Program-made: the position numbers and the translations under genes | Assembly (NCBI RefSeq): GCF_032118995.1 | Contig: NC_092666.1 | Location: 15,253,950 to 15,317,949 of the forward strand | DNA from: Asterias amurensis | Lineage: Eukaryota; Echinodermata; Asteroidea; Forcipulatida; Asteriidae | DNA length: 64,000 bases | Reading direction: 5' to 3' | Shown: in pieces, positions 6,098 through 62,042 of the stretch | How the letters are laid out: each line of letters starts with the position of its first letter | How positions within the stretch are numbered: position 1 is the stretch's first letter | Notes under the pieces: model-generated | The model's database searches: none | What the model was told of the DNA's origin: nothing | The model's input: only the letters and a program-made list of their open reading frames with translations

Positions 6098-6136
6098 TGT
6101 AACATTAATGTCCAACATAACGCTATAGATTTGCAT

Positions 6137-8380: not shown

Positions 8381-9108
8381 ATGATTGGCATTTTGTGGGA
8401 GCTAATCTTATTAGCGATAGTCGCCGTGACAGCAAGTGCTTCGGATGGGTACTGCACTTCTTTCAAGCGACGATCCCTTTACTCTGGGGAGGGACCAACT
8501 CGACCCTCTTGCCCCGGTCCCGGACCCGTCGGAGGCATTCACGCATCGGGTGAAAGCTTCACCCGCAATGTCACTGCTCTTTCGGCTGTGATGTGTGGTT
8601 TAATCTGCATGAGGGATGGTATCTGTGAATCTTTCAGATACTGCCAAGATCAAAACCTCTGCCAGCTCAATACCACATTGCCAGAGAGAGCTATGACAGT
8701 GCGGTCCTCGAGATGCGTCTTGCTTGACAAAGACATCCAGGATGAATCTACCACCCGGGTGGGTGAATCTACAGAGGGTAAGCAAGATAAACTACTTTTA
8801 AAAACTATCTGCGGGGGAGGGGACCAAAGCCGCCCACACCCCCAGTTCCCCTCGCCACACTCCCAATTGAAATTAAGACTCAGTTTCAACAATTTTGCCA
8901 AACCACATTACTGATTTTGTCTGTTCATGTCATTTCTATGAATCATGTACGACGATTTCCGCACACAGATTGATTATTCATCTCACATTAAAATCATCTT
9001 CAAAGTCATGATCCTGCTGAATAAAGTTATTGTACCATAAAACAAGCTCCTAAGTGCATCCCGGACATGCTCAAACCGAGATCTCAACAAAGACGTCTCA
9101 TGAATGGC

Positions 9109-25300: not shown

Positions 25301-28300
25301 ATACACACCTAAGTCTCAATATTATACCACAAACAACATGTCTGCCCCAATATTAGTTTAACAATAAACACAATAATTTTTACCTGCGTTGACAACATCG
25401 ACGTTATAACCTTTGACCTCCCCACTGTTCGAATCACTGAATGCAAATAAAAACACAATAAAGCACTTTCATATTCTGCACAAAGAGAAATCAATATAAT
25501 AGGTCAAGGCCTACATGTAGTTTATTAAGGATCAGACTTTTGTCAGTTAATTCGCTTTACGCAAATATCCGTACCAATGTGCAGACAACAACTGTGAGCA
25601 TATGGAGGTAGAATTAGCCTCCATGCTGTGAGCGACTGTGTGAGCCGTTTTATTTACCTGAAATAGTTTTAACAATGAAGGTACTTGTTTAGTAATTGTC
25701 AAAGACCAGTCTTTTTACTTGGTGTAACCCAACATAAGCATAAAAAAACAAACCTGTGAAATTTGAGCTAAATTGGTCATCGAAGTTGCGAGAAAATGAT
25801 GAGAGAAAAAACACCCTTGTTGGACGAATTTGTGTGCTTTCAGATAGGAATTAAAGACTTAAAGTCTTTTATTATTTTAGTGAGAAATTACCTCTTTCTC
25901 AAAACATATGCTTGTTGAGAGGGAGACGTTTATCACATTGTTTTATACTATCAACAGCTCTCCAATGCTCGTTACCAAGTCAGTTTTTAAGTTAATATTT
26001 GTTTTGAGTAATTACCAAACCCTTTATGTACCTTCCCTTTAACCAATATAAAGACACCTGCAAGAGGCTACACATCTCATTCGTCCGTGGATATAGTTAT
26101 TATTAATTGTTGATTGCATATCGAAAAGCTCAATATACCGCCAATTACAGGATGAACAGGGCACGAGAATAAAACTTTCATTAGTTATAGACGCGGGAAC
26201 CCACGCAATCGGGTAGTGACTGGAAACCCAAATCCACATGCAAGGTCTGAGGTGGGATTCGTACCAGGGTCCACGCAGTCGGGCGAGTAACTGGAAACCA
26301 AATCCACATGCAAAGTCTGAGGTGGGATTCGAACCAGGGTCCACGCAGTCGGGCGAGTGACTGGAAACCAAATCCACACACAAGCTCCGGTCTGAGGTGG
26401 GATTCGAACCAGGGTCCACGCAATCGGGTAGTGACTGAAAACCAAATCCACATGCAAAGTCTGAGGTGGGATCCGAACCAGGGTCCACGCAATCGGGCGA
26501 GTGACTGGAAACCAAATCCACACGCAAGCTCCGGTCTGAGGTGGGATTCGAACCAGGGTCCACGCAATCGGGTAGTGACTGGAAACCAAATCCACATGCA
26601 AGGTCTGAGGTGGGATTCGAACCAGGGTCCACGCAATCGGGTAGTGACTGAAAACCAAATCCACATGCAAAGCTCCGGTCTGAGGTGGGATTAGAACCCA
26701 CAACCAAAATGTACTTACATATATTCCAGTCTGCTCCCGTAGTCGCCAATTGCAAACGTCCAAACCCTTTCAGTATCTAGTGTATCACTTGTGTTTGAAG
26801 CTTCACCTGGGAAAGGCAAATGATTCCAGTTGAATAAATATTCAATATTAATATTAAAAGACACCTTGCTCGTGAAACCACAAGCCCCAAACAAGTCCAT
26901 CACTGTTAGTTCAATGAAGCGCTATATATATTAATGAGGTTTCCTCCGGCCAATGTCAGCAAAGGTTTACTAATTCGTAAACACGCGTAAACCAACGTCT
27001 TTCCCCCATCGCACTCAAACATTATAGGAATTTATTTAAAGACACTGGACACTATTGGTAATTGTCAATTCACAGTTGGTGCATCTCAACATATGCATGA
27101 AATAACAAACCTGTGAAAACTTGAGCTCTGTCGGTCATCGAAGTTGCAAAATAATAATGAAAGAACAAAACACCATTGTCACCCGAAGCAATGTGCTTTC
27201 AGATGTTTGATTTAGAAACCTCAAATTCTAAATATTAGGTCTTGAAATCAAATTCGTGGAAATTTACTTCTTTCTCGAAAACTACGTTACTTCAGAGGGC
27301 GCCGTTTCTCACAATGTTTTATACAATCAACAGCTCCCCATTACTCGATACCAAAATAAGGTTTTATGCTAATAATTATTTTGAGTAATTACCAATAGTT
27401 TCCACTGCCTTTAAGTTGAATTCCTACTCCCCACATAAGCTTGATGACATTTAATGGTTGAGCAGCTCTGAGCTACTGGCTTTGCGAAATGCGGCCTAGT
27501 GAAATTGAATGATTTTTACCGGTGGATGCTAAACTGGTAGAAGTTGCAATAGATGGTAAATTTGCACCGGGGCTATCAAAACTTAATTTGGGTTTTTACC
27601 CATACCATAGTTGAATTATTTCATTTGACTGCAGATTCAACAGAGCAGTCATTTTCGGAATAAATAGAATAAATGTATATAGGCCTATCTATAAGCTCCA
27701 ACCAAAATGACCCCAGGAAAACTGTTAAGCAGATAGAATGGCTAGCCCAGGTATATAGACTCATCGTGCAATGGCGCTGACTGACGTCATACTTCTACAT
27801 GTACTTCTACTTCGGTACTTGGCATTAGTCCTTCAGTCAGGATGTAAACGCCAAGGATAGCTGCCTATGTGCAGTGCCAAGTGTTGTATCAGTGCATTTT
27901 GTTGTATAGGTGCATTTTGTTGTATACGGTGCAAGTAAAAAGTTGGGATGTACTTGCTCCGACCGTCCCCTTAAAGACCTTGATGGATGGGAGCTCGAGG
28001 ATCTGGCTGGGGAGGGCATTCCACCATAAGACTGTTCGTGGGAAAAACGAATATTTGTATAGGTGGAGGGTGCTAGGATGATTTGGTATTTACATTTGTG
28101 ATAGGATCGTACTGCTTGGATGAAGATGAGGTATTGGGTTGGATGGATGGCTAAGCATGGATTAAGCAAATTAGCCTCCATGCTATTGTGGCCTGCTGTT
28201 TCAAACCCATTAAGCAAATGTTGTTAAAGGCAGTGGACACCAGGGGTTGTCAAAGACTAGCCTTCACAGTTGGTGTATCTCAACATATGCATAAAATAAT

Positions 28301-34100: not shown

Positions 34101-37100
34101 GGCGTTGTCCTTAAATAAAGCGTTTGCAAAGCGATGCAACAAGTTCAAAATATATAAACCTGGGAAATCGCTCCGGGATCTGGGGTCGATTTCACAAAGA
34201 GTTAGGATTAGTTCTAATTTAGGACTAGTCCTAAGAGAACTCGTCCCAACTCGAGATAAGACTAGCCCTAACTCTTTGTGAAATCCACCCCTGGTAAGTT
34301 TTTGTCCTTTTTTTCAAAATTGTTTTTTCAAAGGTGTTTTAACTTGAGTGTTCATTAGACATTGCTTGAGGATTAATTTTCATGATTTTTGAAAGTGGTA
34401 AAAATGGGGCAAATCTGGTGACTAGCTGTCGAAATTATACGTGTTGAACCAGATTGTAATTAATTTCCGATCAAAATAATCTCGTAACCCTCCGGCCTGG
34501 CGGCCGTCGGGAGGAGGGTTACGTTATCGCAACCAACTAGTGCAGACTAGACATGGTTTCCCTGGAGACGACCCCCGACCCTGAGAAGTTGCGTCATGCT
34601 CTATATTTAACCGTGGGTGATACCTGACCTAAGATTTTTAACAAGAGACGTCAAGGAATATTTGGTCAGGGGACCAGACTAGGCATCTTGTGCACAAGTT
34701 CTACACTTTGTGAGCGTTAACAATGTTACATTGCATATTTGTTTGTTTCATAATCGGCAACCATGCAGTTCCAGACAATCTCCAAGAACAAAATCCATTC
34801 ACATGTTTCATTGTTCACATTTTGTGTGGATCGTAAGACCATAGAGCAAGGACAATGTTAAAATGTTTACTCATGTGCTACCAAAGTGGTCCTGTACATG
34901 CATGATCATAATGTTGATTGCCTGTGTAAAAGTTACCTGTAAAAATTGCCTCATGTGTCAAGGCCTTTACAAACCAATAAGTACCTTTGTTGGACTCAAT
35001 CTCTTTGATTTGGATAGCAAGGTACACCTGTCTAAGATAAGGCACCATACTAACAATAGGGATTTCTTCAGGAAGTTGCAGTTCATATTCTCCAGCAATC
35101 TCCTTGACCACCATATCAATCCATAAGATCTTATTAGGTGTGGCATCCAACCCCCCATTACGATGCTCTATGAGGTTCAAGTAAGGCATCTCACGACCAT
35201 AGCAAACAATCTGGTCCAAGATGAACTTGTTTGATTGAGCGCTGCATAATTAAAGAACAAGACAAACATGCATAATTCAGTAGATGTTAATGTTGCATCG
35301 GGAAAGAGAATACTTGTGTTTGCTCTTACGTATGGATTGCACATGACGTCATCGATCACAATTTTGTATGTAAAACAATGGGAAATGTGCACGCGTGACG
35401 CGCTGCGCATCTCTTAGCCAACGATTGCCTTCCACGTGTGCACGTTTCATCAAAGATGGCGGTTAGTGCAAGGGGTCTATTAAAGGTATGGTCAAAGATT
35501 GCTAAAATTCAAACAATAGTCAATTGAAAAATTAGTGCGTTACAAAAGTGCATTATTTGACCTTAGCGTCGCTCTTTAAAAATGTATACAAAATTATGCC
35601 AAACTGTCGTTTGGAGTGGTCTTTTTTGTCATCTGAATTACAGCATTTTGTGTGGATGCCTTCTGTCATAGGGAAATCTGTCGCTGAAGATTCTGTCCCC
35701 CATGGGAAATTAACATGGGCTAGAGAAGGAGGATTCAAAAGCGGAAGAAATTGTACACAGTTCACCACATGGGGGACAGAATCTCCTGCCACACCTACAC
35801 TGGGGATGGTGTTCCGTATTGAATCCCGGATCCGAGACCAAAATACATGGATCCGGCCTTTGCCTTCACTCCGGTCTGCGTATCAACTGTTACAAACACA
35901 CTGCCGCCGGACTTCTCGGCGTTCCAGGCAAACCCATACAAGGTGGCTGAGGGTGCTGTGGTGGGAACGTCTATGGGTAGCTTTGACCTCGTACCCAGAA
36001 GCTTGTTTATAAACGACGGGGACGATCGACTCTGGGTATCCTCTGTGACGAGTCCTGCTGATTTGGATGATTGGATCGTGATATCTGAACATTGAAGGAA
36101 TGGTGTCTCTCCAGGTTTGTGCGCAATGTATCTTGTTCGTAACACACAATGGGGACAGTCAATGTCGGGCAAAGTCTGACAGAAAAACGAAGAACGTGAA
36201 ATAATGCAGTTAAAATATAGAAGAGTTTGCGGTAACACCATGTAATAACAATCTCTAAATGAGTTGGGGTGGTTCTGAAAAGAACCGTTGGGTCAACGGT
36301 TCTTTTCAGAACCACCCCAACTCATTTAGAGATTGTTATTACATGGTGTTACCGCAAACTCTTCTATATCTTATCTCCACCATGCAAAGGTTCAAATTCT
36401 ACTAATGCAGTTAAAAAAAAATTCAAATAAAAACATGAAAACATGCAGTTAACAAAATAACCTTCGTAGCCTCGACCAATCATAACACAGATATGGAAAG
36501 CTAATTACGTCACATCACTTTTATCAAATGATATCATTGTATCCAATGACATCTTTGTACACGTGACACCAGTGCATGTCTTTAAAGGCAGGGACCAATC
36601 TAAAGAGACGATTTTTGGGGACACATTTATTATACGGAACATCTCTTCTCGATTCCTGATAGGCGCTAACTGTGCTTTTAGATGTATATTTATTGTAAAA
36701 CGAACATACAGAGTACATTGTTTTACAAATAAAAGCTTAAATTCATTCTCAAACCGAACTTGAAAATGAACTCACCAGCGGTAGGGTGTAGTTTCTTTGA
36801 TGTGATTGCGCATGCTCATCCATATCACCAAACACTGCAACAATGTCGAAGTGTGCATCATCTGACGTGTTATTGGCAAGAGCAACGTCCATATAGCCTG
36901 ACAACATTTGAAAATTTATTTTACAGACAAGTTTAGTGACCTGGGGTGGATTTTCACAAAGGTAGTCCTAACTTAGGACTAGTCCTAGGCAATGTTAAGA
37001 GATAGGACCAGTCCTAAGTTAGGATGAGTTACTGGTCTTAACTTAGGACCAGTCCTATCTCTTTGCATTGCCTAGGACTAGTCCTAAGTTAGGACTACCT

Positions 37101-42137: not shown

Positions 42138-45100
42138 TCACACATTGGTAGCAAGTTTGTTCTTGGATTCAAGGGATATATCGGATCCCTTTTGCGAGCC
42201 CTCAGTGCTATAGCGCCCTCCATAGTTACGCTCCTCATTGCGGCTACGTTCATCACCATAGCTACGCTCGTCATCATAACTACGTTCATCGTCATAGCGG
42301 CGGTCTCCATCATAACGGCTATCACTATAGCGATGGCCGTCGTAGCGAGTGTCACTTTCATATCGAGGGTCCATGCGGTTGTATTGACTGACTTCGTTGT
42401 CGTGTGTATCATCGTTGCCATGGCGACTGACATTGTCATCCTTACGAGCGTAGTCTTCGGACCGATCAGAATGATATGAGACATTGTCGTCATCTCTCTG
42501 GGGAGAAAATAATTAACAGTCAATTTAAAAATAAATCCTCCCAATTGCATAAGTCCCAAGCACTATTGGTACTTCCCTTACTTATTAAAGGTTTAATAAA
42601 TGCTTATCTTACATCAAGAATAGAGGATACTATTTGGTTTTATCAATACACATACGTGTGTAAAGCACTGTATATTCAGTACTTTCCCAAGTCCTGTAAA
42701 CAAAACTCACAGGCATATGACTGAACTTGAATCCTTTGCTATTGTAGAGCAGCAGATGTCTTACCACTAGACTGAGGATTTCTTTCTTAAGGACTCAGGA
42801 AAGTACTGAGTGTATAATTATCTGCCGTGGCACTCTTAAGGCCTCAAACACAATATCAGCCTTTACCCTCGCAGGTACCCATTTATACCCCTAGGTGAAG
42901 AGAAGCAGTTATAGTTTCAAGCACCTAGCTCAAGGAGACAAAAAGTGTCGCTACCGGATTCAATTCCACACTCCGATGACTTATCCACTAGAACTTTAAT
43001 TCGATGATCTGAATCAGTATAGACCACATTCAATATGACGTCACAGTTCAAATATCTGCCCTACAACGCTTAAAAATTAAACCGGGACTGCTGTATGCTT
43101 TATTGATGTACGCGTTTGGACGCGCATACGGTTTGCCCAACAAGATGGCAACTTTCATAGCAAAAAAGGGGTAACTCAATACGATCTATTGAGGACTCTT
43201 TCGGAATCAGATGAAAATGTTTACCTTTCTGATGATTGGCTCAGAGTACTCGTTGTTTGAATACCGCCGTGGGTAGAATCCATCATTGGAGTATCCGTCC
43301 GACATACGATGTGGGGCACGGTAATAAGGGTCATCAAATGAGTCAGAGCGCCCTCTTGTGATTTGCGGCTCTGCGTAGCGTACTTTTCCTGGAGTGCTTG
43401 GTGGGGTGGCGTTGTAATCATAACTGACTGTGTATGATTTGTCATCATAATCATCGTCTTCATCTCTGAGTTTGCGAACAACTTCCATTTTGACTTTCCC
43501 TTTGGTGTCAGAAACGGCGGCTTTCCTCCCTTTGAGAAAAGAAGTTCAGTTAAAACCTTGTTATCAGATTCTTTGACTACCCCACATAAACTTTGACTGG
43601 CATCAGGGGTTTTGTTTGTTTGTCTTCCCATCAAAGGAACTCGGCAAACTCCCACAAGGGGAATGTATAAACATCAAGCTGGCAACATCCAATCTCTCTC
43701 ATTACAAACATTGGTTTGAGGTCTAAGATTATGAGTTGCACATGAGTTGCACAAATCAAGAATTTGTGATTCAGTTACTAGACGACAATACTTGTTCTAA
43801 TCATTACAGGCCTGGAATTACACGGCGGCCACGACGGCCATGGCCGTCGATGCCCTTCCAACTGGCCGTGATGCCCTTCAAAAAATTCTGCTTTTCACGG
43901 CCATAATTGCCGTGCCCTTTTTTCCTTTTGGCCGTAGTGCCCTTTTATTTCTTCTTAAAAAAAAAAAGGGCCGTCGTGCCTTTATTTTCATTTTAAAAAA
44001 CCCAATATTTACGTGTTTAGTATTCATCCAACGAAACTTCGCTTGTGAAGTGTAAACAAATATAATCCAATGCAATCAGGTAAAGAGTCATCATCGTACA
44101 AACAACGAGTAGCGCAACTTGTTATTCCCATCGTGACATCCGTTGCGAACACGTACACATGTACATGCGATTAGCCCGAACATCTGACGTCCCATTTTCA
44201 CAGGGGACCCATCTATTACATGAATCATTGAACGACAGCGGGCGCTGTTGTTCTTCGACCGCCCTCTGCTGGTGGCATTGTTACACCGCGTGATCTGAAA
44301 AACTTGTTTAGTTACTATCGCTTGCAAAAACTTTTCAGGTCAACTTTATAACTTCATAATAGAATAATGTCGCGAAAAGAGCGTTTGAAGCGTTCTGAAA
44401 GTTCTGCTGAAAAATGCAAGAAACTTGACTTCTTTTTTGGGCAATTAAGGATTTTTTTTATTTTTATTTTTATTTTTTAGTTGGCCTAAAATAAAAGTTA
44501 ATCAATTCAATGTAATGCCAATCAGGTCAAGTTTGCTTATGTCAAGTTTGCTTATGTCAAGTTTGCTTATGTCAAGTTTGCTTATGATGAATAAGGTATG
44601 ATTTATCAATATCCTTCTTCATGTAAACTGGTCAATTTTTTTTTAAACTGATTTTAAAGCTGCTGCTTTATTAAAAACAAATTGTTTGGGGGGGTAAGTA
44701 TTTTTATATTTTTAAATAATACAAATATTGTTTTAAAACTAAATGGTACAGTCTGTCATGAATAAGATATGATTTATCAATATCCTTATTGAGATTTGAT
44801 TATCAATATCCTTATTCATGTGAACTGTTTAATTGGGTTTACCACCCGTAGGGGTCCCCCTGGTCAATTTCTTTTTTGGCCTTGATGCCTTTTTTATTTT
44901 CACTGTTTTGGCCTTGGTGCCCTTTCTACTGGCCTTGGTGCCCTTCAAAATTTGGCCTGCTCCAAGGCCAAAGTGGCCTGCCCTAAAAAAATTGTAATTC
45001 CAGGCCTGTCATTATAATAATAATACAGAGCATTTATAAAAAGCAATTTTCTTGTGCCTTACAAAAGAAGTAAAAGTTAAAACAAAGGAAACATTGTTAT

Positions 45101-48100
45101 TTTATGTGTATTTTGGAGTGAAGACAATAACCCAAAGTACACCCTGTCTTTAAATGCCCAGCAGCCGATTTCACGAAACGCTAGGATTAATCCTAACTCG
45201 AGTTAGGACGAGTAACTCGCCCTAACTTAGGATGGGTTCAATGCTTCCTACTAATTGGATACGGAATTTAAAGTCCTTAGTTTAATCCTAAGTTAGGAAG
45301 AGTTTGTTGAAATTGACGGCACGAAAGGTGCTACTCACTTTGCCATTTGCGTTTACACCATACCATACAGATGATGGTTAAGATGAAAATAACGGCTGAA
45401 GTTCCAATAACTGCAATGATGATCCATACAATCAGATCCAACTCTAAAGAAAATAGTATCAAATAAAATTATAATAACTAATATTTCATACTGTAGTCTT
45501 ATATGCAGATATGATATTAGGTCATTGTAAGTACAAGGGCTGACTTATATCTACACATTGTGTATGCTATAATAGACTTTGCAGCCCTTAAATTTAACAA
45601 CAAATTCCTGATTTTTTCAAGAGCTATACATTTGGAAACAAACTTTATAAATGTTCACAAATTTGCACACAACGTACATGGTATGGTGGGAAACTCCCTT
45701 TTGAAATACTTTTGCTTAAAATGCAATTAGTTTTCGAGAAATGAGTGAAAAAAATTAATTTGATCTAGAGAGTCCAAAACTCAAATGTTTGAAAAACAGT
45801 GAAAACATTCTCAGAATCATCTCAGCTCATAATAGATTGATTACAATGGTTCTCCCAAATATTTCACACCATGCAAAGCTTCAAATCCATAGTAAAGTTA
45901 GCTTTTCTATGAACCCTTGGCTTTATAACCAAGTAAGTTATAGTCATCTCACCTTGTTGGACGAGTGTGATAAGTAGTGTATCCTCTCCAACATCATTCA
46001 TCATGGTACAATTATACACCCCAAAGTCTTCCATCTTTGCCTTGTCTATTATCAGTTCACTAAGAACCAAGTTAGTAACTAATATCTCACCTTGTTGGAC
46101 GAGTGTGATGAGTAGTGTATCCTCTCCAACATCATTCATCATGGTACAATTATACACCCCAAAGTCTTCCATCTTTGCTTTGTCTATTACCAGTTCACTA
46201 AGAACCAAGTTAGTAACTAATATCTCACCTTGTTGGACGAGTGTGATAAGTAGTGTATCCTCTCCAACATCATTCATCATGGTACAATTATACACCCCAA
46301 AATCTTCCATCTTTGCTTTGTCTATTATCAGTTCACTAAGAACCAAGTTAGTAACTAATATCTCACCTTGTTGGACGAGTGTGATAAGTAGTGTATCCTC
46401 TCCAACATCATTCATCATGGTACAATTATACACCCCAAAGTCTTCGATCTTTGCTTTGTCTATTATTAGTTCACTCAGAACCAAGTTAGTAACTAATATC
46501 TCACCTTGTTGGACGAGTGTGATAAGTAGTGTATCCTCTCCAACATCATTCATCATGGTACAATTATACACCCCAAAGTCTTCCATCTTTGCTTTGTCTA
46601 TTATTAGTTCACTAAGAACCAAGTTAGTAACTAATATCTCACCTTGTTGGACGAGTGTGATAAGTAGTGTATCCTCTCCAACATCATTCATCATGGTACA
46701 ATTATTCACCCCAAAGTCTTCGATCTTTGCTTTGTCTATTATTAGTTCACTAAGAACCAAGTTAGTAACTAATATCTCACCTTGTTGGACGAGTGTGATA
46801 AGTAGTGTATCCTCTCCAACATCATTCATCATGGTACAATTATACACCCCAAAGTCTTCCATCTTTGCCTTGTCTATTATTAGTTCACTAAGAACCAAGT
46901 TAGTAACTAATATCTCACCTTGTTGGACGAGTGTGATAAGTAGTGTATCCTCTCCAACATCATTCATCATGGTACAATTATACACCCCAAAGTCTTCGAT
47001 CTTTGCTTTGTCTATTATTAGTTCACTAAGAACCAAGTTAGTAACTAACATCTCACCTTGTTGGACGAGTGTGATAAGTAGTGTATCCTCTCCAACATCA
47101 TTCATCATGGTACAATTATACACCCCAAAGTCTTCGATCTTTGCTTTGTCTATTATTAGTTCACTAAGAACCAAGTTAGTAACTAATATCTCACCTTGTT
47201 GGACGAGTGTGATAAGTAGTGTATCCTCTCCAACATCATTCATCATGGTACAATTATACACCCCAAAGTCTTCGATCTTTGCTTTGTCTATTATTAGTTC
47301 ACTAAGAACCAAGTTAGTAACTAATATCTCACCTTGTTGGACGAGTGTGATAAGTAGTGTATCCTCTCCAACATCATTCATCATGGTACAATTATACACC
47401 CCAAAGTCTTCCATCTTTGCCTTGTCTATTATTAGTTCACTAAGAACCAAGTTAGTAACTAATATCTCACCTTGTTGGACGAGTGTGATAAGTAGTGTAT
47501 CCTCTCCAACATCATTCATCATGGTACAATTATTCACCCCAAAGTCTTCCATCTTTGCCTTGTCTATTATTAGTTCTCTAAGAACCAAGTTAGTAACTAA
47601 TATCTCACCTTGTTGGACGAGTGTGATAAGTAGTGTATCCTCTCCAACATCATTCATCATGGTACAATTATTCACCCCAAAGTCTTGCATCTTTGCTTTG
47701 TCTATTATTAGTTCACTCAGAACCAAGTTAGTAACTAATATCTCACCTTGTTGGACGAGTGTGATAAGTAGTGTATCCTCTCCAACATCATTCATCATGG
47801 TACAATTATACACCCCAAAGTCTTCGATCTTTGCTTTGTCTATTATTAATTCACTAAGAACCAAGTTAGTAACTAATATCTCACCTTGTTGGACGAGTGT
47901 GATAAGTAGTGTATCCTCTCCAACATCATTCATCATGGTACAGTTATACACCCCAAAGTCTTCGATCTTTGCTTTGTCTATTATTAGTTCACTAAGAACC
48001 AAGTTAGTAACTAATATCTCACCTTGTTGGACGAGTGTGATAAGTAGTGTATCCTCTCCAACATCATTCATCATGGTACAATTATACACCCCAAAGTCTT

Positions 48101-51100
48101 CCATCTTTGCCTTGTCTATTATTAGTTCACTAAGAACCAAGTTAGTAACTAATATCTCACCTTGTTGGACGAGTGTGATAAGTAGTGTATCCTCTCCAAC
48201 ATCATTCATCATGGTACAATTATTCACCCCAAAGTCTTCCATCTTTGCCTTGTCTATTATTAGTTCACTAAGAACCAAGTTAGTAACTAATATCTCACCT
48301 TGTTGGACGAGTGTGATAAGTAGTGTATCCTCTCCAACATCATTCATCATGGTACAATTATTCACCCCAAAGTCTTGCATCTTTGCTTTGTCTATTATTA
48401 GTTCACTCAGAACCAAGTTAGTAACTAATATCTCACCTTGTTGGACGAGTGTGATAAGTAGTGTATCCTCTCCAACATCATTCATCATGGTACAATTATA
48501 CACCCCAAAGTCTTCGATCTTTGCTTTGTCTATTATTAATTCACTAAGAACCAAGTTAGTAACTAATATCTCACCTTGTTGGACGAGTGTGATAAGTAGT
48601 GTATCCTCTCCAACATCATTCATCATGGTACAATTATACACCCCAAAGTCTTCCATCTTTGCTTTGTCTATTATTAATTCACTAAGAACCAAGTTAGTAA
48701 CTAATATCTCACCTTGTTGGACGAGTGTGATAAGTAGTGTATCCTCTCCAACATCATTCATCATGGTACAATTATTCACCCCAAAGTCTTGCATCTTTGC
48801 TTTGTCTATTATTAGTTCACTCAGAACCAAGTTAGTAACTAATATCTCACCTTGTTGGACGAGTGTGATAAGTAGTGTATCCTCTCCAACATCATTCATC
48901 ATGGTACAATTATACACCCCAAAGTCTTCGATCTTTGCTTTGTCTATTATTAATTCACTAAGAACCAAGTTAGTAACTAATATCTCACCTTGTTGGACGA
49001 GTGTGATAAGTAGTGTATCCTCTCCAACATCATTCATCATGGTACAATTATACACCCTAAAGTCTTCCATCTTTGCTTTGTCTATTATTAGTTCACTAAG
49101 AACCAAGTTAGTAACTAATATCTCACCTTGTTGGACGAGTGTGATAAGTAGTGTATCCTCTCCAACATCATTCATCATGGTACAATTATACACCCCAAAG
49201 TCTTTGATCTTTGCTTTGTCTATTATCAGTTCACTAAGAACCAAGTTAGTAACTAATATCTCACCTTGTTGGACGAGTGTGATAAGTAGTGTATCCTCTC
49301 CAACATCATTCATCATGGTACAATTATACACCCCAAAGTCTTCCCTCTTTGCTTTGTCTATTATCAGTTCACTAAGAACCAAGTTAGTAACTAATATCTC
49401 ACCTTGTTGGACGAGTGTGATAAGTAGTGTATCTTCTCCAACATCATTCATCATGGTACAATTATACACCCCAGTCTTCGATCTTTGCTTTGTCTATTAT
49501 CAGTTCACTAAGAACCAAGTTAGTAACTAATATCTCACCTTGTTGGACGAGTGTGATAAGTAGTGTATCCTCTCCAACATCATTCATCATGGTACAATTA
49601 TACACCCCAGTCTTCGATCTTTGCTTTGTCTATTATCAGTTCACTAAGAACCAAGTTAGTAACTAATATCTCACCTTGTTGGACGAGTGTGATAAGTAGT
49701 GTATCCTCTCCAACATCATTCATCATGGTACAATTATACACCCCAAAGTCTTCGATCTTTGCTTTGTCTATTATCAGTTCACTAAGAACCAAGTTAGTAA
49801 CTAATATCTCACCTTGTTGGACGAGTGTGATAAGTAGTGTATCTTCTCCAACATCATTCATCATGGTACAATTATACACCCCAAAGTCTTCGATCTTTGC
49901 TTTGTCTATTATCAGTTCACTAAGAACCAAGTTAGTAACTAATATCTCACCTTGTTGGACGAGTGTGATAAGTAGTGTATCCTCTCCAACATCATTCATC
50001 ATGGTACAATTATACACCCCAAAGTCTTCCATCTTTGCCTTGTCTATTATTAGTTCACTAAGAACCAAGTTAGTAACTAATATCTCACCTTGTTGGACGA
50101 GTGTGATAAGTAGTGTATCCTCTCCAACATCATTCATCATGGTACAATTATACACCCCAAAGTCTTCGATCTTTGCTTTGTCTATTATTAATTCACTAAG
50201 AACCAAGTTAGTAACTAATATCTCACCTTGTTGGACGAGTGTGATAAGTAGTGTATCCTCTCCAACATCATTCATCATGGTACAATTATACACCCCAAAG
50301 TCTTCGATCTTTGCTTTGTCTATTATTAATTCACTAAGAACCAAGTTAGTAACTAATATCTCACCTTGTTGGACGAGTGTGATAAGTAGTGTATCCTCTC
50401 CAACATCATTCATCATGGTACAATTATACACCCCAAAGTCTTCGATCTTTGCTTTGTCTATTATTAATTCACTAAGAACCAAGTTAGTAACTAATATCTC
50501 ACCTTGTTGGACGAGTGTGATAAGTAGTGTATCCTCTCCAACATCATTCATCATGGTACAATTATACACCCCAAAGTCTTCGATCTTTGCTTTGTCTATT
50601 ATTAATTCACTAAGAACCAAGTTAGTAACTAATATCTCACCTTGTTGGACGAGTGTGATAAGTAGTGTATCCTCTCCAACATCATTCATCATGGTACAAT
50701 TATACACCCCAAAGTCTTCGATCTTTGCTTTGTCTATTATTAATTCACTAAGAACCAAGTTAGTAACTAATATCTCACCTTGTTGGACGAGTGTGATAAG
50801 TAGTGTATCCTCTCCAACATCATTCATCATGGTACAATTATACACCCCAAAGTCTTCGATCTTTGCTTTGTCTATTATTAATTCACTAAGAACCAAGTTA
50901 GTAACTAATATCTCACCTTGTTGGACGAGTGTGATAAGTAGTGTATCCTCTCCAACATCATTCATCATGGTACAATTATACACCCCAAAGTCTTCGATCT
51001 TTGCTTTGTCTATTATTAATTCACTAAGAACCAAGTTAGTAACTAATATCTCACCTTGTTGGACGAGTGTGATAAGTAGTGTATCCTCTCCAACATCATT

Positions 51101-54100
51101 CATCATGGTACAATTATACACCCCAAAGTCTTCCATCTTTGCCTTGTCTATTATCAGTTCACTAAGAACCAAGTTAGTAACTAATATCTCACCTTGTTGG
51201 ACGAGTGTGATAAGTAGTGTATCCTCTCCAACATCATTCATCATGGTACAATTATACACCCTAAAGTCTTCCATCTTTGCCTTGTCTATTATCAGTTCAC
51301 TAAGAACCAAGTTAGTAACTAATATCTCACCTTGTTGGACGAGTGTGATAAGTAGTGTATCCTCTCCAACATCATTCATCATGGTACAATTATACACCCC
51401 AAAGTCTTCCATCTTTGCTTTGTCTATTATCAGTTCACTAAGAACCAAGTTAGTAACTAATATCTCACCTTGTTGGACGAGTGTGATAAGTAGTGTATCC
51501 TCTCCAACATCATTCATCATGGTACAATTATACACCCCAAAGTCTTCCATCTTTGCTTTGTCTATTATCAGTTCACTAAGAACCAAGTTAGTAACTAATA
51601 TCTCACCTTGTTGGACGAGTGTGATAAGTAGTGTATCCTCTCCAACATCATTCATCATGGTACAATTATACACCCCAAAGTCTTCCCTCTTTGCTTTGTC
51701 TATTATCAGTTCACTAAGAACCAAGTTAGTAACTAATATCTCACCTTGTTGGACGAGTGTGATAAGTAGTGTATCCTCTCCAACATCATTCATCATGGTA
51801 CAATTATACACCCCAAAGTCTCCCATCTTTGCCTTGTCTATTATCAGTTCACTCAGAATACCACCTTTCTCCTCATGCTTTACTACCGTGAATCGCCCAA
51901 ATGTCCCTGAGAAAAAGAAAAAAAAAATCAAGATAAGCTTTAGAATACCGGACCTTTTTAACTGTGGGGCTTTATAAGAGTTGTTGATTGTGGAAGAACG
52001 CAGCATAAGAGAGGTAAACTCTTTGAGGATCTAGGTTATGAACACCTTATCACCTGAACAAAATTGTATCTCGCATGAAAATGCTCTGTGCAAAAATGTT
52101 GTATCTTGCCGCCTACTTGTTTGTGTGTATCTGAGCTATAGACCTTATGCAGATGACAACATTTCAGTAGGGCGCCCTCACCTAGAGGTCAAAAGGAGGT
52201 GGTTCATTGGCCAATCCTGTGCGCCGCGCGTACAAATCTGTGCGTTTCGATTGTTTCGTCACCGTTTTTCCACTAAGATGGCCGCTGGATGACGTCAATG
52301 CATAAGGTCTATTCTAAGTGAGATACACTGTCACAATGCAATGATAAATCTTTAAGATGACAATGGGAGACTTTTTGAAAGCTCTGCCACTAGAGGGCAG
52401 CAGACCTACCAGGTAAGGGTGCACAACTCCTATAGCAAACAATGGTAAAAACTAAAAGTTCAAAAATACTCAAAAAATATTTAAAAGTCTCTCAGCCTCT
52501 TGAAAATTAAATCAGATACATTGTCATACAACTAAATTTCAGATTACTTCTCAAGTTTTGGTAGGTCAGCATTTTGGAATTTTCGCTAATTACCCTAGAA
52601 GAAACACTCCCAGAAACTCATGCACACCGCTTGTTATCCTTGGGGAACTTGTGTCCAGTACGTCCTGTTCCAGAACAGTTTGGTTTATGCTGGCAATGTG
52701 TTATGAAAAACAAAATACAGTTTGGCTAAATCTTAAATACAAAATCAAAAACACGCAAAACACAAGGTATTTGCTGTCAGTGACCGTCACTCATGCTTCT
52801 CCTATTCCTAAGTTGTTGACATTACCTGGTGAAGAGCGCCCTCTCTTGGTGATTGGCAGATAGTCTAAAGTTTCCCATTACTCACCTTCCTCAAGTTCAT
52901 TACCATCTCCCCAGGACCATATTACAAGATATGGGTCTGGCTTAGTACTGGTAAAACATTGCAGGGTAGCTTTACGTCCGATCTTTGCTTTCTGCTCTGA
53001 AGGGCTTGTGATATCCGTAATTGCTAGATGAAAATATTGGAATGGGTTTATTTATTAAATGTAGGTTCTTAGTAGATTAATTTTTGTAAACATAACGCTG
53101 ATTTATAGGAAAAAAATATCAGAAAGATACATGAAAAGTTCTGGCTGAATACAGTGTCTACTTCTTGCTGAGAAAACAGCAAAAACTAACAAAGTATTTT
53201 CATAAAAACGTTGAATCCATCCACGTTTAGTGAGGTGACAGGGGGTACCAACTGCCACTCTGGCCGCAGCATCCATGAACAGACACCAAACCACAGAAAT
53301 ATGAGACACAGTGCAATAGTGCTTAGATAATGGGCAAGGGAATAAACCAAAGTTACTGACATCTTAAGAACAGTATAAAAAGAGAAAACAGAAGGACACA
53401 AAAGATTGAGCCCTGCTGCAGTGGATCGAAAATAGCTGAGAAATCAACCTTGCCGACCTACCATTGATATCCACTCGTCCATAACTCATGATAGGTTGGA
53501 ATCCAGGGACCGTAGCGATACAGACATAGGTTCCAACATCACTGTCTCTGATCATATCAAACTGCAGGACATGCATAGTGCTTAGCGTGGCCCGGGAGCC
53601 CATACGTGTCCATTTAATGGTCGGCTTAGGGTTGCCATCTGCTGAGCATGACATCTGGGCAGGTCCTTCTTCATCAACGGAGACCGACACTGGAACCTCT
53701 AGGAATCTTGGTCCATCTTTGGAGAAAAAAAATATTTTAAAAGGAGCCCAAGAGAACTATTCAAGGGAAATACGGGCTAGAATTGATTTTAAAGTTTTGG
53801 TTCGGACTTATCAATGTATCCATGGTATTGCCCCTGTTTATCTTCAAAGCTTAGTTCAGGAGTACAAAACAACCAGGAATCTGCGATCTTCAAATAAATA
53901 CCTTCTGACTCCCTCAGTTATCAAAACCAAGTCATACGGTTCCCGCTCTTTCCAATATGCAGCAGTTCAGTTATGGAACAGTCTTCCAGAGATTGCTAAA
54001 CAGGCTGAGACATCAGAACAATTCAAAACCCATTTAAAAACATATTTGTTGACTTTGTACAATAATTGTTGATTTCCTTTTACAGCGGAAAGGGACCTCA

Positions 54101-57100
54101 CGGTGATATGTGCTATAAAAGAATGTGTTTATTATCATTATTATTATTATTATCATGAATTATTATTTTAAAAAGAAGTCCTAGAGAATCATTCAAGGGA
54201 AAATCCACACATTCAGGTATGGACTGTATGGACGGTATGGACCCAATCCACAAAGTACCCGGACGGGATACATCCGGGGTCCTGGAGGTGGGAAGGCCAG
54301 GGAAGATAGCACTATGCCAACCCACCTGCAGCCCAAGCTAATGTGCGTTTTTCCCCCAAATATTTTAACAATTGTTTTTTTGTCACATTATTAAAAAAAA
54401 ACAGGGGTGAGATTCATTGATGACAAAAAGGTTTGAAACTAGGATCCAACTTTAAGGAGTGATGTTGAAATGATAGCATTTCTATCTTTTGGCAACCCCT
54501 GGAGTTAAAAATATCAAGGATCTTTTGGGGAATATCATCCTCAGTGCTAGAAAAGTAGATCTAAGAACTCAATTTTAAATCCCTCCAGGGTTCTACTAGT
54601 TCTACACACAGTGGTCGTGCTGGTAAACCCGCCTGGCACTCACGATTCCCCAACCACTGAAAAAATTTCATCTGTTTTAGACAACCACACAATTCCCAAG
54701 TTTTTAAATTAAACTTGCAATTTCCCTTTTTTCCACCACTAAAGAAATCCTGGGCAGAAGCCTGTCCCTCTCCAGTCAATTTTTCGTTGGTCACTTACAG
54801 TTCAAATATATTTGACTAATAATAACAGCAATGACAAAACACAATGGCCCATCCCACTTCATAACTATCTGGAATACTTACATAGGATTGGAACGGTAAT
54901 ACTTCCTGTAGTGGAGCCAATAGCGTTGGTAGCAGTGCATGAAATAGAAGCCATGTGGTCATCTTTGGTCATAAGAAGCTCAAGTTGACTACTTTCAGCA
55001 CCTACAAATTAAAAGGTCAATTTACTCATAAAGGTCAATTTATTAACATAAATTATGACAGTTTTCACACAGTCAGGGTAATATAACACAAGTTCATGAC
55101 TCTCCAAGCTACGTTTTGGTCGTAACTTTTACTTTAACAAAGGTGTGTTGTTATCAATACCGATGCAATTATGGGCTCCTATCTTTGGGTGATAACTTCA
55201 CAAGATCACAGGGCTTGTAGCTGGGCATTTTCACTGGACCTGAGTTTCTTTTACAAGATGAGCGGCCGATTTCACGAAACGCTTGGATTAATCCTAATTC
55301 GAGTTAGGACGAGTAACCCGTCCTAACTTAGGATGGGTTCAATGCGTCCTACGTATTTCGATACGGAACTGAACCCGTCCTATATGTAAGTCTTAAGATT
55401 AATCCTAAGTTAGGAAGAGTTTGGTGAAATCGACGGCTGATTCAGGATGAGAAATGACTGTCCTTACCTGCAAATTTACAACTCTCAAATTTTCATTTTT
55501 GCAAAGGGAACAAAAAACTTCCAATGGAAAATCTTAAAGTCCATGGGAAACTTTTGATGGGGCACCAGGGCCAAGGACCGGGGGCAATGGATGGCATCCA
55601 TGTAATTCTAGGCATGCTATACAAAAGGAGGAAAAAACCCATCAAATGACAGTCCTATAAATTTTTTTCTGAGATCCTACCTGATATTGGTTCATTATTC
55701 TTAACCCAGGTATACGTCACACTTCTTGGGTTTGCATCCACAACACAGCGGAAGAATACAGTCATATCTTCTCTGATCTCTGATGGAGTAGACTCTACTA
55801 CAACCACTGGGGCATCTGGAAAGAATGTTAAACAGCATCTCAATGAAAGAAGGGATGACAATTACAATACTTCAAAGGGTGTCGTTTCTAATAGTGCTTA
55901 TTACCAAAAAGTTGTTGGGTATACCCTGCCTTAAAGCCATTATACACTTTCGGTACAGAAAAGAAAAAAAAGTTCACAGATTTACAAATAATTAACAGGG
56001 TTTACAGAAGGTAATGGTGAAAGACTTCTCTTGAAATATTGTTTCATGAAAGGCTTTACTTTTTGAGAAAACATTAAAACAATATCAATTCTCGATAGCG
56101 AGAATTACGGATTTATTTTAAACACATGTCATGACACGGCGAAACGCGCGGAAACAAGAGTGGGTTTTCCCGTTATTTTCTCCCGACTCTGATGACCGAT
56201 TGAGCTTAAATTTTCACAGGTTTGTTATTTTATATATAAGTTGTGATACACGAAGTGTGGGACTTGGACAATACTGTTTACCAAAAGTGTATAATGGCTT
56301 TAATGGCAAAAAATAGCTAAGCACAACAAAATTACGCTCAACAGAATAAGGTAACCAGCCAAAATACCAAGTCACAATTTTCTGCAGAAATGTACCTGTA
56401 GACCCATTTTCTCAGAATGACTAAATTGTATGTTTTGGATGTAGACAAAATTTGCCCTTGAAGGAAATCGCATGCAGTATTGTATCACAGCGCTACAGTG
56501 CTCTTTAAGTTGTTATGGTCATAAACTTGAAGAGTAAATACCTAAAGTACACACTTCCTTAAGGGCATATTTAAAAAGCTCTTAAGCAGATAATACTGCT
56601 TGACAAGGTTCTTTGCTAAGCAAATATTATTGAGTGGGGCACCAATAACTGTATTTTTTGCTGGTAACACAATTCTACTAATCAAAACTATTTTGTGCTT
56701 AGCAAGTTATTTTGCTTACAACTTAATAAAAGTGGGCCTTGACAGAGTAAGTTTACTTACGTTGAACATCCAGAATGACTGCAAGTTTCTTAGGTGTACC
56801 CAGAGCCATATGGGAGACTTCACACACAAAGACAAGGCTGTGATCCTCAACAGTTGGGGACAATATCAATGTACTAGCGACGTTCATCAATTTCCCAGAT
56901 GGGTCAACATCAGACCACGCCCTCGTGTGGGTAGCTGCTACCTCTGCCTCCGCTCTCAACCACTTGATCTGGGCGACTGGGTTGGCTCGAATGGCTTGGC
57001 AGGTTAGGTTGGTTGAAACACCAACGACGACTGGTAGGATAGCATCACTGGGGTAAATGGTTGGGGGCTCTGGTATTTCTGTTTGGAATTAAAAGAATTA

Positions 57101-60100: not shown

Positions 60101-62042
60101 AAACAACAGCTGAATACAAGTAACAAGCAATTTGCCACAAATGGAAATTTGGTTGGTAATCCTGTTTTTATCAAGGAATAAATTTCATGCTAAGCTAATT
60201 TTTGTGCCTAGCAGCTCTATGGAATTGGCCCTTGGTGTTCTTACTTACTCTGTATAGTAAGTTTTGCGGGTCTGGATGTTAAGACAGGAATCTCAGCTTC
60301 ACTTGAGATGACATGACAAAGATACTCTCCATCATCCTCAAGAATCACATTCTCAATCTGTAGATTGTACTCTCCAAGAGATGTATTCCCAACAAAAGAA
60401 AATCTGGAAAAAAAAAAAATTAATATAAATAATAAGATGTAAAACTAATCAAACTTTTAAAACTTAAATTTAGTTTCGTGATTCACTTCCAATTAAAAAT
60501 ATTTATGAAAATGGACAGCAAATTACTATATAGTACAAGTCTCTAACCTCAGGTGAAAATTGTGTAAAATACCAGCCAATACCCTTCACATGCAATTCTT
60601 TACAAAATCCCCAAAACTTTCAACTTCAAGTATGGTCTGTGCGTTTTTCTAAAAACATTTTTTGGTTCTTTCCTGAATTGTTATGATATTATAAAAACAG
60701 CATTGAAATTGATGACCAACAACTGGATTATACTTATAATTAGCCCTATAATAAACACAATAGGGTAGAAGTTTCCATAATCAGGGAAATTTTCAAAATT
60801 GAGCACAGAAATATTGGTTTATTTTCAGGAAACTTTCAGCAAAATCAGGGAAAGTTGACAGCTCAGTGTCGTACTCTTCCATAAGCAAAGTTTTTTTCCC
60901 AGGGAACTTTCAGCAGGGCAGATAGAGTTAAGGTCTAGTCACACAGACCCCGATAACGAGAACAATAACAATGCACGCCCTCGATTGGTTGAATTGCTCC
61001 ATGATGAATACATGTATGCCACCCTCATTCAACCAATCTAGGGCATCCATTTTTATTGTTCTCGTTTTGGTTCTCGTTATCGGAGCCTGTTACAGCTTTT
61101 TGTGCTTCGGTACCAGCATGTTTTAATGCCTGCATAGGATCTAATGTCCTAACACTAACAAACTCTAACACCATTGAATGGTCTCCCATGGAGTCCCAAT
61201 TGCCTTCTGGCAGCTTTTTTTATATTAATATCATCATGTTTATCTTCGCTACGGTGGTCCCCTACCAGACGATGGTTTACACATGATCCATATTTAAGTG
61301 CTTCTGAATAATGTCTGGCACGGAACATAACTTGTGAGTCTAAAATTATCTTTTGGAAAAGAAAAATCTCAACCCCTCCTGAATTCAAATTACTTTTTAC
61401 TAAACAATGAAATTTGTCATTGTTAATTTTTAGAACAGAGAACTCTTATGTAAAGTTACAATTCTCCTTCAAAACACATAAGAAATTGAAGAATTAATAA
61501 CACAAAATCAGCAGGATTAGAACATGGCCATAGAAAGCAAATTAAACTTCTTACTCAAGGCTTTCAAACAAAATTTTCTGAAAGTAATACTTGCACAAAT
61601 AGGTGAAATTCTTCATTGTTTATTTAGCCTTGCAATGGAATGACAGACATTAGTTACCAATAAAACAAACGCACAGTAAAGAATATGAAAACAACCCAAC
61701 AAACACACAGAAACGCTGTTTCAAACTACTTTGGTTGGTTGACTTTAGCCTAAAGTGTTTTAAAGTGAATATGAATACATCATAAGGAAACCAGACCATT
61801 TTGCCCTCTTAGCCTCACTTTGATATCACCCAAAATGAATGGGGGAAAAAACAAGATGGTGGCACCATACCTGGGAGAATGATTGATTAAAGGATCGGTA
61901 TCCCCAGCAATAAAGTCGACTCCTTTGAACCACAAGATGTTTCCTGATGTTTCTGTAACGATGCATTTAAGAACAACGACTGCCTCTCCGATCATGACAG
62001 CCGTGTCGCTCGGTTCCTCCTGGAATGATTGTAAAGCCAATC
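42138..62042 (-). CDS. Kirrel/Neph/IrreC-like immunoglobulin-superfamily adhesion receptor (5' end outside window)
   Basis: Eleven exons: 62042-61871, 60403-60249, 57078-56761, 55815-55681, 55001-54882, 53716-53462, 53023-52886, 51906-51745, 45443-45339, 43529-43225 and 42497-42138 (stop included). All phases agree; about 740 residues are present, close to vertebrate Kirrel1. Ig1: FQEEPSDTAVMIGE...VLKC...WFKG...YLCHV. Ig2: LTCQAIRANPVAQIKW...FVCEV. Ig3: FFRCVVDANP...ISCTATN. Ig4: MSCSADGNPKPTIKW...GTYVC. Ig5: ATLQCFTS...VIWSWGD, then GRFTVVKHEEKGGILSEL and FGVYNCTMMNDVG, which align by eye with Kirrel Ig5 (ERYTVERTNS...HYNCTAWNSFG). The membrane span is LIVWIIIAVIGTSAVIFILT, followed by KRKW. 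The Arg/Tyr/Asp-rich tail ends ATNV, a class I PDZ-ligand form (T-x-V), as in Neph proteins that bind ZO-1. The model takes the first donor after Ig5 (51745) and skips the 138-bp array. The signal-peptide exon was not found before 64000. Confidence 0.9.
43635..43800 (-). mobile_element. SINE fragment related to 39415-39665
   Basis: Shares CTCGGCAAACTCCCACAAGG, GAGTTGCACAAATCAAGAAT and GATTCAGTTACTAGACGACA with the copy at 39.4 kb. It is cut by the hAT-like insertion at 43807. Confidence 0.5.
43807..45008. mobile_element. Non-autonomous hAT-like element with CAGGCCTGGAATTAC ends
   Basis: The termini are exact inverted copies: CAGGCCTGGAATTAC at the left and GTAATTCCAGGCCTG at the right. They are flanked by TCATTA on both sides (43801-43806 and 45009-45014), a likely target duplication. 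The CAGG start suits the hAT group, although hAT duplications are usually 8 bp. Near each end are runs of GGCCGT..TGCCC words (GGCCTTGGTGCCC on the right). It contains a 15-bp tandem repeat at 44527-44587. It is in the intron between the cytoplasmic-tail exon and the membrane-span exon of the Kirrel-like gene and has no transposase ORF. Confidence 0.75.
44527..44587. repeat. 15-bp tandem repeat, four copies
   Basis: Four successive copies of TCAAGTTTGCTTATG inside the hAT-like element. Confidence 0.95.
45168..45321. repeat. Foldback, AGTTAGGAC family
   Basis: The outer ends are GCCGATTTCACGAAACGC and GTTGAAATTGACGGC. The inner pairing is CTAACTCGAGTTAGGACGAG with CCTAAGTTAGGAAGAG. It lies about 20 bp from the donor of the membrane-span exon. 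Close copy at 55263-55437. Confidence 0.7.
45953..51851 (-). repeat. 138-bp tandem array (~43 copies) derived from the Ig5 exon and its splice donor
   Basis: The first and last copies differ by 5792 bp, which is 42 periods of 138 minus 4. On the gene's strand each unit reads TGAACTGATAATAGACAAAG (strand E of the Ig fold), through YNCTMMNDVGEDTLLI (strands F-G), to CAACAAG, then the intron start GTGAGATATTAGTTACTAAC and TTGGTTCTTAG, then the next copy. So a unit is 107 bp of exon plus 31 bp of intron. Copies differ at few positions (ME/IE/MQ/RE/IK at one dipeptide; YNCT or NNCT). The unit is a multiple of three and has no stop in one frame on each strand, giving ORFs of 1201 and 802 residues on the minus strand and 1187 and 804 on the plus strand. 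Two adjacent copies (near 49475 and 49610) lack two bases and break both frames. Confidence 0.95.
51745..51906 (-). CDS. Founder exon of the array: second half of Ig domain 5
   Basis: This exon of the Kirrel-like gene starts at an acceptor behind a pyrimidine tract (TTTTTTTCTTTTTCTCAG) and ends at the first of the repeated donors (CAACAAG|GTGAGA). It encodes GTFGRFTVVKHEEKGGILSE followed by LIIDKAKMGDFGVYNCTMMN and ends LVQQ. The upstream third, including GRFTVVKHEEKGG, is unique and not in the array, so this is the original copy. Its intended partner is the membrane-span exon at 45443, and joining them keeps frame (LVQQ-E-LDLIVW). Confidence 0.85.
52140..52325. repeat. Dispersed repeat with GGGCGCCCTCACCTAGAGGTCA
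   Basis: AGGGCGCCCTCACCTAGAGGTC at 52170 is mirrored at 14370-14390 (GACCTCTAGGTGAGGGCGCCC). It has the CAATGCATAAGGTCTATT end that recurs in related blocks in the window. Confidence 0.5.
53771..54163 (+). mobile_element. 5'-truncated LINE (reverse-transcriptase C-terminal tail)
   Basis: Encodes on the plus strand RARIDFKVLVRTYQCIHG, then APVYLQSLVQEY, RNLRSSNKYLLTP, RSFQYAAVQLWNSLPEI and FKTHLKTYLL before a stop at 54072. This is the characteristic end of L2/CR1-like non-LTR retrotransposon ORF2 proteins. An (ATT)n tail follows (54135-54163). It is flanked by an imperfect target duplication of about 38 bp (53733-53770 and 54164-54201, both running TATTTTAAAA...GAG...ATTCAAGGGAAA). Only the last ~105 codons remain. 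It sits antisense in the intron just upstream of the Ig4 exon of the Kirrel-like gene. Confidence 0.85.
55263..55437. repeat. Foldback, AGTTAGGAC family
   Basis: Begins GCCGATTTCACGAAACGCTT and ends TTTGGTGAAATCGACGGC. A near copy of 45168-45321, intronic in the same gene. Confidence 0.75.
55930..56304. mobile_element. MITE-like repeat, family C (TAAAGCCATTATACACTT ends)
   Basis: The ends TAAAGCCATTATACACTTTC and AAAAGTGTATAATGGCTTTA are inverted copies 375 bp apart. The interior shares TGAGCTTAAATTTTCACAGG and GTTTGTTATTTTAT with family A, so it is a related subfamily. It is intronic between the Ig2 and Ig3 exons. Confidence 0.75.
56310..56740. repeat. GCTAAGC-rich foldback-family fragment
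   Basis: AGCTAAGCACAACAAAATTA on the left and TTTTGTGCTTAGCAAGTTAT on the right are inverted, with GGTAACCAGCCAAAATACC and GTATTTTTTGCTGGTAAC between. Confidence 0.5.
57846..58237. mobile_element. Foldback MITE, CGGTCGGCCATTTATGG family, best-preserved copy
   Basis: The ends TTAAAGGAACACGTTGCC and GGCAACGTGTTCCTTTAA are exact inverted copies, consistent with a TTAA target. The centre is the palindrome ATGGGAGTCAAAATTTTGAC followed by TCCCATAAATGGCCGACC. Same family as 13655-14046. It lies in the intron between the Ig1 and Ig2 exons. Confidence 0.9.
58240..58830. repeat. Three tandem diverged ~220-bp blocks
   Basis: Each block carries GTAAAACACTTGTTTAATCTA, an ACAGTGTGCAAA word and TTCTGGATAGTGAATTCCATTGTG. 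Blocks start near 57655, 58240, 58475 and 58690. They look like a decayed tandem duplication interrupted by the foldback MITE at 57846-58237. Confidence 0.55.
59487..59826 (+). mobile_element. ~340-bp MITE-like repeat, family A
   Basis: Starts GAAGGCAGTGGACACTATTGG and ends ATTACCAATGAGTGTCTTTTTAA, slightly shorter than other copies. It is in the intron between the Ig1 and Ig2 exons. Confidence 0.75.
59996..60235. mobile_element. Foldback MITE, TTTCATAGAGCTGCTAAGC family
   Basis: The left arm CCAATTTCATAGAGCTGCTAA pairs with TAGCAGCTCTATGGAATTGG at the right. The inner arms pair around AAAACAGGACTACCAAGC and TTGGTAATCCTGTTTTT. It ends only 14 bp from the donor of the exon ending at 60249. 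Confidence 0.8.
60946..61087. mobile_element. Foldback MITE with CCGATAACGAGAAC arms
   Basis: CCCCGATAACGAGAACAATA at the left pairs with GTTCTCGTTATCGGAGCC at the right. The inner arms pair across GCCCTCGATTGGTTGAAT and ATTCAACCAATCTAGGGC. It is intronic. Confidence 0.8.

Follow-up and report, generated by a model that had tools for sequence, protein, structure and literature searches.

Minisatellites that repeat an exon–intron boundary in tandem, termed mirages, have been described for the amphioxus Adh3 and globin genes (PMC3087553), and troponin C and PGBD5 have been given as further amphioxus mirage genes (PMC3902484). According to the account in PMC3087553, one of them repeats a 3′ exon boundary in a 157-bp unit, cluster length is unstable, somatically so at Adh3, and the Adh3 data together with reverse transcription PCR suggest that regular splicing is undisturbed. 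Two other systems are related in part. In the Rogers model, introns arise when segments carrying AGGT are duplicated in tandem, and the examples presented are ATP2A1, 24-bp AGGT repeats in fission yeast and potato RdRp (PMC4974935); a 38-bp repeat in TERT intron 6, located more than 1 kb from the exons, is reported to promote exon skipping (PMC3948165). Here, we describe an array of the mirage kind in a 64,000-nucleotide stretch of DNA (the window), within a gene predicted to encode a Kirrel-type receptor. The repeated segment, present 43 times head to tail, comprises the 3′ part of the exon that encodes the C-terminal half of the fifth immunoglobulin (Ig) domain, Ig5, its splice donor and approximately the first 25 bases of the intron. 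The array and its flanks are as follows.

51745–51906, minus strand: founder exon or copy 1, 162 nt long, encoding the C-terminal half of Ig5, with both ends in phase 1, placed by acceptor, donor, frame and a KIRREL3 match
45953–51744, minus strand: copies 2–43 of the 138-bp exon–donor unit, from Tandem Repeats Finder and splitting on the donor
49403–49674, minus strand: copies 17 and 18, each with a 2-bp deletion, breaking the read-through frame
45444–45952, minus strand: original intron beyond the last copy, 509 nt
45339–45443, minus strand: next exon, a hydrophobic, transmembrane-like segment (judged by eye), entered in phase 1

Tandem Repeats Finder called a single minus-strand array at 45927–51858 with a period of 138, 43.0 copies, 98% matches and a score of 11204. 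Individual copies were delimited by splitting on the donor motif GTGAGAT, which left no double-length unit over and gave 43 donors with the identical motif CAACAAG/GTGAGAT (slash, exon–intron boundary) in 43/43 copies. Both counts agree with the approximately 43 copies proposed by a sequence-only reading of this DNA. The last exon base moves from 51745 in copy 1 to 45953 in copy 43. After the founder, 40 of 42 units are 138 bp long; the other two, the neighbouring copies 17 and 18, are 136 bp and carry one common 2-bp deletion. A 16-mer of the unit, allowing up to two mismatches, has 42 matches in the window compared to 0.03 expected by chance, and with copies 2–43 masked, the founder exon is the sole blastn match of the unit within the window. 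Neither the viral nor the prokaryote genome contigs contained the exact 24-mer of the unit (0 matches each), which says little, as neither collection is of animals. The array is real, and chance is not an issue.

The array starts inside the founder exon (51906–51745), and unique intron follows the last donor at 45953, so both edges of the original exon–intron boundary are visible, as the sequence-only reading had claimed. Alignment to the founder exon and to the intron also bears out the proposed make-up of the unit, part of a coding Ig exon joined to its own donor and intron start. The suggested split into 107 exonic and 31 intronic bp is right in kind but misplaces the edge. TTCTTAG, the end of the supposed 31-bp intronic part, aligns to exonic TTCTGAG of the founder, which gives an exonic share of about 112–114 bases and an intronic share of about 24–26. 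Compared to the founder, the exonic 107 bases show 5 differences in the commonest unit and 1 in copies 6 and 43. Over 27 columns of alignment with the original intron past copy 43, the intronic share shows 3 mismatches and 2 gaps. This divergence fits either a complex founding event or an array older than its homogenised copies imply. At the unit junction, a short GGT(T) is common to intron (ACTTGGTT) and exon (GGTATTCTGAG). An AG lies near the junction in 42/42 units (a tally of 37 + 4 + 1), and TACTAAC followed by AG is likewise kept in 42/42. A short, perfect inverted repeat, TTAGT-T-ACTAA, is also present in the intronic part (51607–51744 and later units) but absent from the original intron immediately beyond copy 43. 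At 138 bp, the period comes to 46 codons, and no stop interrupts the intronic part in the frame of the founder exon, a point absent from the sequence-only reading.

The 42 units comprise 24 distinct sequences, the commonest of which accounts for 10 units. Pairwise identity averages 97.8% (minimum 94.2%), slightly below the 98–99% given earlier, and still in keeping with copies that are recent or homogenised. Adjacent units (lag 1) show 2.24 differences on average compared to 3.07 (standard deviation 0.17) in shuffled order; units 31–35 nearly repeat units 26–30, and units 25–26 equal 22–23. Such neighbour likeness and block repeats are expected from stepwise duplication of units and blocks, and the unit order argues against a simple assembly loop. 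Founder-like bases occur in units at both array ends and also in some middle units. Copy 1 has a private base, and the sequence past the donor of copy 43 diverges at once, while the exon part of copy 43 is not divergent. The tyrosine of the YNC motif is lost, by change to asparagine, in 6/42 units. Fifteen of the 18 variable columns (two are the deletion) fall within a 52-bp stretch, picked post hoc, with a scan P of 0.001 at that width; with point-change columns only and width left free, P is 0.038. This clustering was not used as evidence of selection.

Comparison to the amphioxus mirages indicates the same anatomy: a founder exon (51906–51745), 43 donors and the original intron after 45952. 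Splice signals are likewise carried in the units, the donor in 43/43 and the AG in 42/42. As regards the homogenised interior and excluded cluster edges of mirages, the signs are mixed: 10/42 units are identical, yet founder-like units lie mid-array. Unit sizes are comparable, those reported in amphioxus being 150–160 and 157 bp for globins, 60 and 108 bp for PGBD5 and 10–72 bp for Adh3 (PMC3087553, PMC3902484). The copy number is not, with 43 here, whereas the two haplotypes of BflGb6 have 6 and 3 and BflGb9 has a duplicate (PMC3087553). The array also differs in its Kirrel host gene and may do so in its period, which is divisible by three and leaves the frame open. With the Rogers-model cases it shares an intragenic tandem duplication, AGGT in every unit (CAAGGTGAG) and a multiplication of potential splice sites, and the fission yeast case is also multi-copy (PMC4974935). 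Unlike intron gain under that model, however, it multiplies an existing donor at an existing intron. Like the TERT intron 6 repeat (PMC3948165), which is variable, it lies as a tandem array in the intron of a protein-coding gene, but it begins in the exon. No exon-boundary minisatellite in an echinoderm or in a Kirrel gene was found in the open-licence literature, as covered by titles and abstract openings. The novelty suggested by the sequence-only reading, which knew of no described case of this length in this receptor family, is not supported, as the kind itself is known from the amphioxus mirages (PMC3087553, PMC3902484). The Kirrel array extends this known kind to a new gene and is unusual in its copy number and in-frame unit.

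The host gene was identified from its exons for Ig1 (two halves), Ig2, the N-terminal half of Ig3, Ig4, Ig5 (two halves) and the hydrophobic segment; none was located for the C-terminal half of Ig3. Those outside the array region that were given coordinates are listed here.

52886–53023, minus strand: exon, N-terminal half of Ig5
56755–57079, minus strand: Ig2 exon (approximate ends)
60254–60404, minus strand: exon, C-terminal half of Ig1 (approximate ends)

Kirrel and nephrin-like Ig receptors have five Ig domains followed by a transmembrane segment. Pfam detects Ig domains in the gene. The C-terminal half of Ig1 matches SYG-1, Kirrel1 and Kirrel3 chains (best E = 6.4e-7), and Ig2 matches KIRREL1 (E = 1.1e-5). 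In a query combining the founder exon with three array units, the founder stretch matches KIRREL3 (E = 3e-5). For that query, titin and MDGA1 outrank KIRREL3, probably due to the array repeats it contains. Ig4 has Roundabout as its best match (E = 8e-15), and Kirrel support is uneven across domains. By the matches of the Ig1 C-terminal half, Ig2 and the Ig5 C-terminal half, the gene is assigned to the Kirrel-type receptors, in line with the Kirrel-like gene named by the sequence-only reading. Echinoderm kirrelL is described as lacking introns in all echinoderms examined (PMC8903837); the present gene is split by introns, and identity with kirrelL was therefore ruled out. Guanine + cytosine (GC) content is 38.5% in the window, and 44% at third codon positions over 240 codons from four exon ranges, two mis-framed ranges being excluded. 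A short coding repeat was also observed at 42243–42316, inside the presumed cytoplasmic exon.

We consider it probable that the array is a mirage-type minisatellite across an exon–intron boundary of this Kirrel-type gene that is removed with the intron from donor 1. One tandem duplication would have joined intron (ACTTGGTT) to exon (GGTATTCTGAG) at the GGT(T) common to both, after which single units and multi-unit blocks would have been multiplied by slippage or unequal exchange. The 162-nt exon would be defined with donor 1 (51745) and spliced to the transmembrane-like exon at 45443. Copies 2–43 would leave inside a 6,301-nt intron and the protein would be ordinary, the extra donors being a side effect that may yield rare longer in-frame isoforms. 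Joining the Ig5 exons in silico through each of the 43 donors to the transmembrane-like exon showed a continuous frame for donor 1. For donors 17–43 (27/43), the frame is not open to the next exon on this allele, owing to the 2-bp deletion in copies 17 and 18, with the first stop, located in five of the 27 constructs, at residue 814 of the construct, just past the copy 17 deletion. Both these closed frames and the published mirages of like anatomy, reported not to interfere with regular splicing, support removal with the intron. Several points weigh on the other side. The use of donor 1 is something we infer; a unit length divisible by three, an open frame and a good donor alike in 43 copies would fit a translated array too; and the intronic part is more diverged from the original intron than a simple recent duplication predicts. 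In addition, 8/17 point changes are synonymous in the read-through frame compared to 4.4 expected (P = 0.044). An antisense open frame yields the equal P of 0.044, however, so this excess permits no conclusion on coding selection. For the 15 exonic changes alone, P is 0.075, and nonsense changes among copies number 0 against just 0.6 expected.

In principle, then, the array copies could be read as protein, and the donors could be used alternatively, so that 0 to 15 additional half-Ig repeats of 46 residues each would separate Ig5 from the membrane, with stalk length varying by isoform or individual. Donors 1–16 of the 43 do run open into the transmembrane-like exon, adding these 0–15 repeats; the period equals 46 codons with the intronic part open in the exon frame, and the donor is uniform in all copies, fitting the consensus at 8/9 positions. 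This openness follows from a unit length, 138, that is a multiple of three and from the lack of stops in the short intronic part. With the exon part open from the start, some 10 further codons and a period in whole codons were enough, for which we estimate a chance of about 0.2, and the fully open antisense frame indicates that openness proves little. The Y to N change in 6/42 units and the frameshift in 2/42 also speak against translation, and structure prediction for the founder half-domain with three array repeats was uninformative (mean predicted local distance difference test score, pLDDT, of 32 from single sequence). Exon definition favours short exons, and hence the first donor or two. 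Alternative use of the donors is, on balance, unlikely. That a ladder of equal in-frame donors gives a membrane-proximal stalk of 0–15 half-Ig repeats whose copy number differs between individuals, the minisatellite tuning receptor length, we regard as distinctly unlikely.

The donors and AG sites of the array might instead alter splicing as decoys, giving, for example, a truncated receptor without membrane anchor, or intron retention. We joined donors 1, 2, 5, 10, 16 and 20 to every later array AG (204 pairs; donor 43 has none). For donors 1, 2, 5, 10 and 16 (181 pairs), a stop follows 5 or 8 nt past the junction, and for donor 20 (23 pairs) it lies already upstream. Stops in all 204 pairs ruled out a coding model of 107-nt mini-exons and 31-nt introns; the 181 truncating pairs are as expected of a decoy, as are TACTAAC and then AG in 42/42 units and a read-through of copy 17 that also stops ahead of the membrane exon. 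Nevertheless, 31 nt, the shortest possible intron in a unit, is under the usual animal minimum. The array AG tested has 12/18 upstream pyrimidines, fewer than three real acceptors (13, 18 and 14 of 18; the founder exon acceptor has 18/18). Intronic repeats are able to steer splicing, as described for TERT intron 6 (PMC3948165), but published mirages with splice signals are reported as not disturbing it (PMC3087553), and we hold a decoy role to be very unlikely. An array inflated or invented by the assembler would recall the draft-genome version of one amphioxus globin cluster, called apparently aberrant in the amphioxus globin paper. Such an artefact is extremely unlikely, as the 24 distinct units, their non-random order and the deletion common to two neighbours form a pattern of real stepwise amplification, and the window contains no N. 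Removal of the array with a 6,301-nt intron from donor 1, an intron that use of donor 43 would shorten to 509 nt, is thus the explanation we retain.

Elsewhere in the window, two similar PAN-domain-like reading frames lie in opposite orientation at 5633–6148 (minus) and 8351–8911 (plus), with Pfam PAN_1 E-values of 0.0007 and 0.0015, neither of which reaches the curated cut-off. Two matches to the Rfam histone 3′ stem-loop stand back to back at 36245–36291 (minus) and 36293–36339 (plus), both just above the gathering score; the pair may be an inverted repeat and not histone genes. Tandem Repeats Finder called a second array at 26201–26698, with a period of about 70 bp and 6.6 copies, a period of 144 also being called. 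A 13-bp tandem repeat, AACACCAACCCCC, is present in 14.8 copies at 24535–24726, within a stretch of strong GC skew. The reading frame at 53530–54072 (plus) has no Pfam match and is similar to the end of a non-long terminal repeat retrotransposon reverse transcriptase.

This locus extends exon-boundary minisatellites to a cell-adhesion receptor, with a copy number above the globin cases. Its 43 near-identical donors ahead of one acceptor are a natural test of donor choice by the splicing machinery, and the in-frame unit makes the lengthening of a receptor stalk by a minisatellite directly testable. Should the host prove to be other than a lancelet, mirages would not be confined to cephalochordates.
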